DNA of 64,000 bases from Paralysiella testudinis (GTDB taxonomy: Bacteria > Pseudomonadota > Gammaproteobacteria > Burkholderiales > Neisseriaceae). The DNA lies in assembly GCF_016894345.1 (NCBI RefSeq), contig NZ_CP069798.1, positions 620,001-684,000 of the forward strand. The letters run 5' to 3'. The position numbers and the translations under genes were made by a program. Position 1 is the first letter of the stretch, and each line of letters starts with the position of its first letter. Under the pieces are notes generated by a model that saw nothing but the letters and a program-made list of their open reading frames with translations, ran no database searches and was not told where the DNA came from. Shown piece after piece: positions 25,849-28,873 of the stretch.

Positions 25849-25878
25849 TTGCAAAAGCCAATGGCGGCGTTTTATAAT
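25849..25878 (+). promoter_or_regulatory. Sigma-70 promoter of the riboswitch leader
   Basis: TTGCAA (25849-25854), an 18-bp spacer and a perfect TATAAT (25873-25878). Transcription should begin near 25885, just before the first riboswitch helix at 25888. Confidence 0.7.
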
Positions 25879-25884
25879 CGCCAC

Positions 25885-26181
25885 CGCTCTTAAGGGAGTA
25901 GTTGTTGAGGCTGCTTCATACCAAGCCTAAAAAATAAGCTAACTGCGTTGGCTCGTCTTGTCGTACTACTTGTACTGTCTTCGGCTTCCCGTCTTGTTAT
26001 CTTAATTTTTTAGATTTGGTATCCGCCAGCCTTAAGCGGTAATCAACATCTTTGCACATTGCTGCATGGTTGCCGTGTCTGAGCCTAGGCGCAGATTAAC
26101 GAGACTTAAGACACCGCAAACCCCACAGGCGGGCGTTTGCCGGTGTCTTTTGTTTTCTGCCCGCCTGCGGTGTCTTTGCAT
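25885..26181 (+). promoter_or_regulatory. yybP-ykoY (manganese) riboswitch with a mobile element in its P2 loop
   Basis: P1 is TCTTAA (25888-25893) with TTAAGA (26106-26111). Loop L1 is GGGAGTAG (25894-25901), and loop L3 ends CGAGAC just before the P1 3' strand; both match the Mn2+-binding loops of yybP-ykoY riboswitches as I remember them. P2 is TGTTGA (25903-25908) with TCAACA (26043-26048), continued by GGCTG (25909-25913) with CAGCC (26027-26031). Expression platform: AAGACACCG (26108-26116) pairs with CGGTGTCTT (26141-26149), giving a terminator with TTTTGTTTT at 26148-26156. Its left arm overlaps P1, so aptamer and terminator exclude each other. This predicts gene ON with Mn2+. The gene behind it (UPF0016) is a usual target of this class. 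Confidence 0.75.
25918..26022. mobile_element. Correia-like element, 105 bp, inside the riboswitch
   Basis: Inverted ends of about 20 bp (ATACCAAGCCTAAAAAATAA on the left; the complement, with differences, ends at 26022). The core has AACTGCGTTGGCTCGTCTTG, then GTACTACTTGTACTGTC. The same arrangement is seen at 46990-47092. The core matches, from memory, the meningococcal Correia element, but the terminal repeats are different and the length is shorter. Confidence 0.8.
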
Positions 26182-26745
26182 ATGGATGCGTTTCTCTCTT
26201 CTACTTTGGCCGTGGCACTGGCCGAAATCGGTGACAAAACCCAACTTTTAGCCTTATTTTTGGCTGCCCGCTTTGCGCAAAAATACGCCATTGTGGCCGG
26301 TATTTTGGTGGCCACGCTGCTCAATCATGCCGTGTCGGCATGGTTGGGCGTGTGGTTGTCGCAATGGCTATCGCCGATATTGATGGGCTGGCTGGTGGGT
26401 TTGAGTTTTGTGGCGGTGGGGCTATGGCTGCTCAAGCCGGATAAAGACGACGATGTCGATGGCCGCTATCTGCGCTATGGTGCGTTTGCCGCCAGCACGG
26501 TGCTGTTTTTCCTGGCCGAAATCGGCGACAAAACCCAAATTGCCACCGTGTTGTTGGCGGCCAAATACCATGATGTGGTGGCGGTGGTGGGCGGCAGTAC
26601 CTTAGGCATGTTGCTGGCCAATGTGCCGGTGGTGTTTGCCGGTGCTTGGCTGATGGGCAAGCTGCCGTTTAAGGCGGTACGCATCGGCGCCTGTGTGTTA
26701 TTCTGTGCTTTGGGTGTGTTTACCTTGGTGCGTTTATATGTCTGA
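26182..26745 (+). CDS. GDT1/TMEM165 (UPF0016) family manganese exporter
   Basis: 187 residues from ATG 26182 (MDAFLSSTLAVALAEIG); longer in-frame starts would run into the leader. Six membrane helices in two homologous halves, each with the family signature: AEIGDKTQLLAL near residue 14 and AEIGDKTQIATV near residue 112. The acidic residues of these motifs are the proposed cation-binding sites. Bacterial relatives such as MneA of Vibrio export Mn2+; eukaryotic members move Mn2+/Ca2+. The riboswitch-like leader supports manganese as the ligand and substrate. Overlaps the next gene by eight bases. Confidence 0.9.
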   Translation: MDAFLSSTLAVALAEIGDKTQLLALFLAARFAQKYAIVAGILVATLLNHAVSAWLGVWLSQWLSPILMGWLVGLSFVAVGLWLLKPDKDDDVDGRYLRYGAFAASTVLFFLAEIGDKTQIATVLLAAKYHDVVAVVGGSTLGMLLANVPVVFAGAWLMGKLPFKAVRIGACVLFCALGVFTLVRLYV

Positions 26746-27439
26746 TGCGGTGTCGGCTAAAGCTGGGGTGTTCAGGCAGCCTGAGATAGGGCTGCCTGAA
26801 ATAAACACGGTGGCCATACTGTACCGCCATGCCGATTTTGTGGCCATCCACAAACCGGCAGGCGTGAGTGTGCAGCAAGAAGCCGATGCGCCGGCATTTT
26901 TGCCTGCGCTGGCAGCGCAGTTGGGCGTGCCGCGTTTGTGGCTGGTGCATCGCTTGGACAAGGTAACGTCGGGCGTGTTGCTGTTGGCGCTGAATGCCGC
27001 AGCGGCATCAACACTGGCGCAAATGTTTGCCGCCGGGCAGATGCACAAAACCTATTGGGCTGTGGCGGCGGGCAAACCGAGCAAGAAACAAGGCTGGGTA
27101 ACAGGCGATATGGCCAAGGCGCGGCGCGGGGCATGGAAACTGCTGCGCAGCCAGCACAACCCGGCGCGCACCCGTTTTGACAGCGTGAGCTTAGAAGCCG
27201 GTTTGCGTTTTTACCGTTTATGGCCGCAAAGCGGCAAAACCCATCAATTACGCGTGGCGATGAAAAGCCTGGGCTGCCCGATTCTGGGTGATGTGCTGTA
27301 TGGTGGCGAAGCCGCCGCGCGGGTATTTTTGCATGCGCAGCGGCTGGTGTTTGCGTATCAGGGTGAACAGACGGATATTCGTGCCGATGCACCGCTGCCG
27401 TGGCCTGCTGCTTGGGCAGCGGTAGGAGAAGACACATGA
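26738..27439 (+). CDS. RluA-family pseudouridine synthase
   Basis: 233 residues from ATG 26738, which overlaps the upstream stop. The catalytic motif VHRLDKVTSGVLLLA contains the essential Asp; FYRLWPQSGKTHQLRVAM and GCPILGDVLYGG follow as in the RluA/RluC/TruC group. There is no S4 domain, as in RluA and the short TIGR01621-type synthases. It isomerises uridine in rRNA or tRNA; the target base is not predictable. A near-palindromic uptake-sequence stretch in the first codons encodes VFRQPEIGLPE, so the N terminus has been shaped by DUS. Confidence 0.9.
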   Translation: MSDAVSAKAGVFRQPEIGLPEINTVAILYRHADFVAIHKPAGVSVQQEADAPAFLPALAAQLGVPRLWLVHRLDKVTSGVLLLALNAAAASTLAQMFAAGQMHKTYWAVAAGKPSKKQGWVTGDMAKARRGAWKLLRSQHNPARTRFDSVSLEAGLRFYRLWPQSGKTHQLRVAMKSLGCPILGDVLYGGEAAARVFLHAQRLVFAYQGEQTDIRADAPLPWPAAWAAVGEDT

Positions 27440-28001: not shown

Positions 28002-28873
28002 AGGGTATGTTCACAATTACTTGTCATAAAGGTAACCACATCACAATGCACCCCAATAAAACCGTACTGTGGAAGTTGCGTTTCAGCTTATCGTAACGGC
28101 TGGCAATCGCTCGGAAATGTTTCAAACGGCAAAAGGCATTCTCTACCAAATGCCTGATTTTATATAAATACCAGTCCATGTCTTTATTTTTCTCTTCCCT
28201 ATTTCTTTTATAGGGAATATTGGCTTTCGCACCGCTTTGCTCTATTTGCTCCCTGAGCCGGTCTGAATCGTAACCTTTGTCCGCATTAACCAACTCAGTT
28301 TCGGCAAGGTTGATGTTGTCAAGCAGCTCCGGTGCAACGGTGACATCATGGATATTGCCCGCAGTAACGATAACCTCAACCGGATTGCCTGCAGCATCTA
28401 CAGCCAGATGAATCTTGCTGGTTCTGCCGCCTCGGCTCATACCGATTGCGTGATCCTCTTGCGCACTGAGCGCTGAGGCGCAGTGTTGGTGGGCACGGAT
28501 ATAACTGCCGTCTATGGCTACCCACTCCAAGTCACTCTCTTGGCTGAGCTGTTTCAAGATTGCAGTAAAAATGCCTTTTTCTGACCAACGGTTATAAGCG
28601 GTATAAACAGTATGATACTTGCCGAAATACTCGGGCAAATCCCGCCACGGTATGCCGGTTCTTATTCTGTAAAGTATGCCTTCAAGAATTCTGCGCAAAT
28701 TGGGTTTGCTATAAATACCCAAATCACGCAGAATAGGTAACAGCTTCGTCCAATGTTCATCTTCGAGTAGTGTACGGGGCATCGCAGGTGTATTGGGGGG
28801 GTGTGAGAACTTCCTTTTATGCCTGCGTTTCTTTTTTATTCAAGGGCATGACAAGTAATTGTGAACAGACCCT
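28002..28873. mobile_element. Complete IS5-family insertion sequence
   Basis: Terminal inverted repeats of 25 bp (28002-28026 and 28849-28873; AGGGTATGTTCACAATTACT and complement) have one mismatch. TA occurs at both borders (28001-28002 and 28873-28874), fitting the two-base target duplication of IS427-like members, which would make the element 28003-28872 (870 bp). It carries one intact transposase gene on the minus strand and has inserted between the secreted-protein gene and the oxyR terminator. Confidence 0.92.
28024..28782 (-). CDS. IS5-family DDE transposase, intact
   Basis: 252 residues in one frame. An N-terminal helix-turn-helix-like region (RRILEGILYRIRTGIPWRDLP, the DUF4096-type domain) precedes the catalytic domain: Asp91 in VAIDGSY, Asp168 in VNADKGYDSD and Glu214 in RHLVENAFCRLKHF with the YREK-like spacing (R, K) typical of IS5. 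Many IS427 relatives need a frameshift to make the full protein; here no frameshift is needed. All catalytic residues are present, so it is probably active. Its stop codon lies within the left terminal repeat. Confidence 0.93.
   Translation of the reverse strand: MPRTLLEDEHWTKLLPILRDLGIYSKPNLRRILEGILYRIRTGIPWRDLPEYFGKYHTVYTAYNRWSEKGIFTAILKQLSQESDLEWVAIDGSYIRAHQHCASALSAQEDHAIGMSRGGRTSKIHLAVDAAGNPVEVIVTAGNIHDVTVAPELLDNINLAETELVNADKGYDSDRLREQIEQSGAKANIPYKRNREEKNKDMDWYLYKIRHLVENAFCRLKHFRAIASRYDKLKRNFHSTVLLGCIVMWLPL

Follow-up and report, generated by a model that had tools for sequence, protein, structure and literature searches.

A predicted manganese riboswitch leader of Paralysiella testudinis in which the terminator-hairpin loop can pair with the segment before the start codon

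Described manganese riboswitches and the Paralysiella leader

Manganese riboswitches are widespread, and their expression platform is usually described as a terminator or as a translational block. The known riboswitch logic is that Mn2+ stabilises helix P1 and prevents the terminator (PMC11087558). Mn induces BP3410, a UPF0016 gene of B. pertussis, via its riboswitch, and a leader RNA of ~200 nt is reported without Mn (PMC8546581). The mntP riboswitch of E. coli acts on translation initiation (PMC9603457), and RNA-seq on the mneA riboswitch of V. parahaemolyticus was without a drop in coverage (PMC13274385).

We analysed a 64-kb stretch of the genome of Paralysiella testudinis, a Snodgrassella-like member of the Neisseriaceae, referred to as the window. 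Judged from its sequence, one leader in it is a yybP-ykoY Mn2+ riboswitch, with Mn2+ binding itself presumed, and the Mn homeostasis gene that goes with this family lies directly downstream in the form of a GDT1/UPF0016 (MneA-like) exporter (Pfam PF01169, E 2.3e-41; Table 1). A TATAAT-like box is legible in many relatives at the place equivalent to that of the predicted promoter, and transcription would start near 25885. An IS transposase-like open reading frame lies further on, on the minus strand (28024-28782).

Like RF00080 riboswitches of the transcriptional type (L. lactis yoaB, X. oryzae), the leader has a GGGAGUA L1, an L3 with the Mn-sensing A, a P1 3' strand shared with a terminator hairpin (H1 below) and a Mn efflux gene downstream. 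It differs from them, as far as the excerpts of their descriptions go, in a P2 that holds a MITE and in a terminator loop that pairs with the pre-start segment (helix H2). The B. pertussis BP3410 and Vibrio UPF0016/MneA leaders belong to the same gene family and carry the same riboswitch, whereas H2 goes unmentioned in the sections of their published accounts covered here. E. coli mntP and alx also have yybP-ykoY riboswitches upstream of Mn exporters; by our reading, neither has the pairing of H1 loop and pre-start segment as it is arranged here. What appears to be new is the H2 pairing, the aptamer and the P1-terminator switch being the already known, canonical Mn switch.

Table 1. Features of the leader and its surroundings (positions in the window).
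Feature	Coordinates	Strand	Remarks
Sigma-70-like promoter	25849..25878	+	TTGCAA-18-TATAAT; 10/12 matches
P1 5' strand	25888..25894	+	TCTTAAG; pairs with 26105-26111
L1 motif of the Mn2+ aptamer	25894..25901	+	GGGAGTAG; GGGAGTA invariant in alignment A1
P2 hairpin	25905..26035	+	TTGAGGCTG (25905-25913) / CAGCCTTAA (26027-26035); MITE inside loop
Correia-like MITE	25918..26022	+	105 nt; ends ATACCAA/TTGGTAT; inserted in the P2 loop
P3, P4 and L3	26037..26075	+	P3 CGGTAA/TTGCCG; P4 TGCA/TGCA; L3 TCAACATCTTTG
P1 3' strand	26105..26111	+	CTTAAGA; AAGA (26108-26111) common to P1 and H1
H1, terminator-like hairpin	26108..26149	+	stems 26108-26116/26141-26149 and 26117-26121/26135-26139; bulged C26140
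H2 5' strand	26126..26134	+	CAGGCGGGC; inside H1 loop
T-rich tract	26148..26157	+	TTTTGTTTTC; after H1
H2 3' strand	26159..26167	+	GCCCGCCTG; 14 nt upstream of start codon
Second copy	26166..26176	+	TGCGGTGTCTT; over the sole SD-like stretch (GGTG)
GDT1/UPF0016 (MneA-like) cation exporter	26182..26745	+	187 aa; Pfam PF01169; start codon 26182-26184

A mobile element inside the aptamer

Rfam reported no riboswitch in the 64-kb window, even at a permissive threshold (RF00080 up to E 10), and RF00080 had no match across the whole genome. This blindness probably arises because the 105-nt MITE in the P2 loop, which the first-pass annotation had overlooked, parts the two halves of the aptamer. Insert-free relatives do match RF00080 upstream of the same GDT1 gene; in the closest named relative, Snodgrassella sp. 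CFCC 13594, whose protein is 75% identical, the match lies in the same place (E 2.5e-5). Using a covariance model (R1) of the P3-to-P1 part, derived from 23 relatives with the window excluded, we found that the 3' part of the aptamer at 26034-26107 scores 62.4 bits (E 3e-14). This was the sole good match of R1 in the genome, with one further match at chance level. Across the family, RF00080 matches 41 of 83 Neisseriaceae genomes at E <=1 and exceeds its gathering score in 3 of the 83, so most Neisseriaceae Mn riboswitches fall below the gathering threshold and would escape standard annotation.

With the insert removed in silico, 93.5% of cells were paired in P1-P5 across 25 Neisseriaceae (93.7% in P1), and covariation reached 0.654 against 0.241 in shuffled and at most 0.122 in slid controls, where some excess over the slides is expected since the structure was taken from the window itself. 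All eight core P2 pairs are altered on both sides in relatives. The yybP-ykoY layout was found in P1-P4, L1 GGGAGUA, L3 UCAACAU and the invariant Mn-sensing A; the latter, A26048, is the counterpart of A48, the Mn-sensing adenosine of the X. oryzae aptamer (PMC6754395). The A two nt further on is replaced by C here, as it is in several relatives.

The inserted element is short, has terminal inverted repeats and occurs in many copies, as a Correia-like MITE should: there are 44 matches genome-wide, ~40 of them near full length, and the other copies are 85-91% identical. We take such inverted-repeat elements to be comparable to the Correia elements (CREE/NEMIS) of Neisseria, which they resemble in their short inverted-repeat form and copy number and from which they differ in the ends ATACCAA/TTGGTAT and, for this copy, in the location inside a riboswitch hairpin loop. 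A 51-column stretch of the MITE aligns with a Correia-like element of the Neisseriaceae locus L029, which stands at ~1749-1800, directly upstream of the same riboswitch in another genome of the family. Among 12 copies examined, the base preceding ATACC is mostly the same as the one following GGTAT, which suggests that the MITE makes a very short target duplication. Another repeat, AGGCWGCCTGAA, occurs 41 times in the whole window (for example at 26771-26782) against a chance expectation of none, at times as inverted pairs, and appears to be the P. testudinis dialect of the DNA uptake sequence.

The predicted terminator hairpin and the pairing of its loop

The pairing that had been proposed from the sequence for the terminator, AAGACACCG (26108-26116) with CGGTGTCTT (26141-26149), is complete (9/9), and an alternative pairing of the former strand with the P1 5' strand stood for the shared AAGA and not for the whole length. 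H1 has a folding energy of -27 to -31 kcal/mol (z -4.5 to -6.2) and a covariation of 0.395 versus 0.261 when shuffled. With TTTTGTTTT following at once upon the hairpin of -27 kcal/mol, the predicted layout is that of an intrinsic terminator, and the first 12 nt at most after H1 hold a mean of 7.2 T in Neisseriaceae and 6.0 elsewhere; H1 itself was absent from a simple terminator scan that admitted loops of 3-8 only. In growing-transcript folding, the probability of P1 dips to 0.27-0.31 near transcript ends 26125-26130, stands at 0.95 at 26145 and is 0.00 from 26150, the end from which H1 reaches 0.91. The picture is similar without the MITE insert. The earlier proposal of a riboswitch with a P1-versus-terminator switch is supported, and Mn-gated termination, following known riboswitches, is most likely the first layer of control.

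The same first reading had proposed a helix between CAGGCGGGC and GCCCGCCTG, which is present with 9/9 pairs (10 with a G-T end pair) and beats shuffles of the downstream segment (p 0.003). For comparison, 100 leaders with an aptamer and a GDT1 start were extracted, of which 98 were usable and 68, from alpha-, beta- and gammaproteobacteria, non-redundant; all 68 were kept in the counts of H2 pairing, ribosome-binding-segment pairing and geometry. A gapless H2 of 6-12 bp was found in 68/68 leaders; it joins the region of the H1 loop to a segment whose end lies 8-23 nt upstream of the start codon. When the downstream segment was shuffled 300 times, p was below 0.05 in 62/68 and below 0.01 in 34/68, with a combined Fisher value of 9e-58 that is indicative only, the sequences being related. 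Native partners had a mean energy of -15.4 kcal/mol versus -9.6 kcal/mol for partners swapped between species. The native partner had a median rank of 6 of 68; as similar G+C-rich strands recur in many leaders, it was top-ranked in a minority of cases only.

Covariation of H2 was assessed in a sequence-only alignment (A2) of 54 of the 68 leaders, the 14 with divergent or longer platforms having been omitted before counting to ease alignment. Here 89.1% of H2 cells were paired versus 75.9 when shuffled, and covariation was 0.356, with 0.168+-0.015 in shuffles and no more than 0.079 in slides. Of the seven core pairs, six are altered on both sides; CG has turned into UA in 10 sequences, for example, and GC into AU in 8. 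We consider it highly probable that H2 pairs at all. The RF00080 alignments examined leave it unpaired, and no description of it was found in the yybP-ykoY literature sampled, which covers much of the field in excerpts, the founding 2015 papers lying outside the sample. H2 as a second terminator was ruled out, as it is without a T-tract after it.

A further 11-base pairing noticed at the outset, that of AAGACACCGCA (26108-26118) with the second copy TGCGGTGTCTT near the start codon, is exact (11/11). The accompanying claim that H2 excludes both hairpins failed: H2 is nested inside the second-copy hairpin with a 2 nt overlap, the two folding jointly at -32.6 kcal/mol, and it adjoins H1, with whose stems it shares no nucleotides save the weak apical CCC/GGG. 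The gap between the H2 5' strand and the H1 3' arm (L2) is 0-1 nt in 63/68 leaders, and in all 68 H1 formed even when the H2 5' strand was held open. Abutting helices of this kind are laid out as in an H-type pseudoknot, which suggests that H1 and H2 can coexist; the pairing and the L2 of 0-1 nt are those of an H-type pseudoknot, and its loop L3 is short for a full-length H1. A crude energy sum put the pseudoknot, which nested folding cannot represent, at about -81 kcal/mol; the best nested fold came to -82.4 and the second copy with H2 to -79.5, gaps that lie within error.

Two proposed layers of control and their alternatives

Our best explanation, which we hold to be evenly poised between right and wrong, is a Mn2+ ON-riboswitch in which P1-gated termination is joined by an H1-H2 pseudoknot layer on the read-through mRNA. 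It builds on an aptamer, a P1/H1 overlap, an H1 and an H2 that have their basis in sequence and covariation, and it supposes Mn2+ binding, termination, pseudoknot formation and a translational effect. The Mn induction of the homologous B. pertussis gene and its ~200-nt leader RNA count in its favour. At low Mn2+, AAGA would quit P1, H1 would form ahead of the T-rich tract and transcription would stop; with Mn2+, L1 and L3 would dock, P1 would be stabilised and the polymerase would pass. H2 cannot decide termination, because the polymerase reaches its 3' strand only after the T-tract, and it therefore marks read-through mRNA, on which the second layer would probably act at translation. In that mRNA only, the H2 5' strand in the H1 loop would pair with a C-rich strand that immediately precedes the ribosome-binding region. 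The resulting pseudoknot, H1 being intact, may hinder 30S loading at low Mn2+, a step to which we lend slightly less than even credence, and leaky read-through would thereby be kept silent; P1, by opening the base of H1, would relax the pseudoknot. The earlier suggestion that one leader could control both termination and start-codon access is supported as a possibility.

Several results pull against this explanation. The only SD in the window is weak (GGTG), L3 of the pseudoknot is short, and the V. parahaemolyticus RNA-seq is without a drop in coverage. When P1 is forced, the nested fold still has H2 at a probability near 1, so H2 may not be Mn-sensitive. The same calculation, in which a forced P1 puts H2 ahead of the upper part of H1 and H1 prevails without P1, favours the main rival, unlikely in our estimate, in which H2 would lock the ON state: with P1 held by Mn2+, a simple H2 hairpin would trap the H1 3' arm in its loop, stop H1 from re-forming after the polymerase has passed and leave the ribosome-binding region open. 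The apical CCC/GGG pairs of H1, a few nt of which are shared with the H2 5' strand, fit such a lock; however, the H2 strands lie outside the H1 arms, and their near-abutment in 63/68 leaders favours co-existence, to which the nested calculation is blind. It is somewhat less probable still that the leader is a plain transcriptional Mn riboswitch in which H2 is real and serves mRNA stability or prevents misfolding of the 5' UTR, with no Mn-dependent role. Termination alone would account for ON-switching, as in L. lactis (PMC11087558), and H2 is able to form only once termination is decided, but this would leave aside that H2 is kept beside the start codon even in leaders whose spacer makes a poor U-tract.

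We regard as very improbable a three-way switch in which only one of H1, H2 and the second-copy hairpin can form at a time and the second copy masks the start region. The 11-bp match beats downstream-segment shuffles here (p 0.005), and the second copy with H2 is the minimum fold of the isolated 81-nt segment (the joint fold given above). Against this, nested folding of the full leader gives the second-copy helix a probability of 0.00, H2 and either hairpin are compatible, and the second copy is without a counterpart in relatives (40.8% of cells paired versus 41.1% shuffled; the genus is represented by one genome). A general three-way competition is therefore unsupported: H1 and H2 both show conservation together with covariation, and the third arm, exact as it is here, shows no conservation. 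Since the second copy covers the sole SD-like stretch, a species-specific masking role is possible. Among the 68 leaders no general anti-SD pairing was found: the ribosome-binding segment paired at p<0.05 with the H1 5' arm/P1 3' strand in 6/68 and, in a mild excess, with the P1 5' strand in 10/68, 3.4 being expected in each case. It is likewise improbable, if less so than the three-way switch, that the MITE has disrupted the aptamer and left the leader constitutively terminated or open. P2 does carry the insertion and Rfam does not recognise the family here, yet the site is the variable P2 loop, P1-P4, L1, L3 and A48 are intact, and the MITE arms lengthen P2 in the predicted fold.

More tentatively, and with more doubt than confidence, we propose that an undescribed H1-H2 pseudoknot is common to the GDT1 Mn riboswitches of proteobacteria, that through it one hairpin, Mn2+-gated via P1, would serve both termination and start-codon access, and that the loop of the terminated leader could pair in trans with read-through mRNA. 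For annotation, the locus indicates that a MITE can enter a variable riboswitch loop, spare the core sequence and mask the element from standard searches. For the riboswitch family, a covarying helix between the terminator loop and the pre-start segment across alpha-, beta- and gammaproteobacteria would be a concrete, testable second layer.
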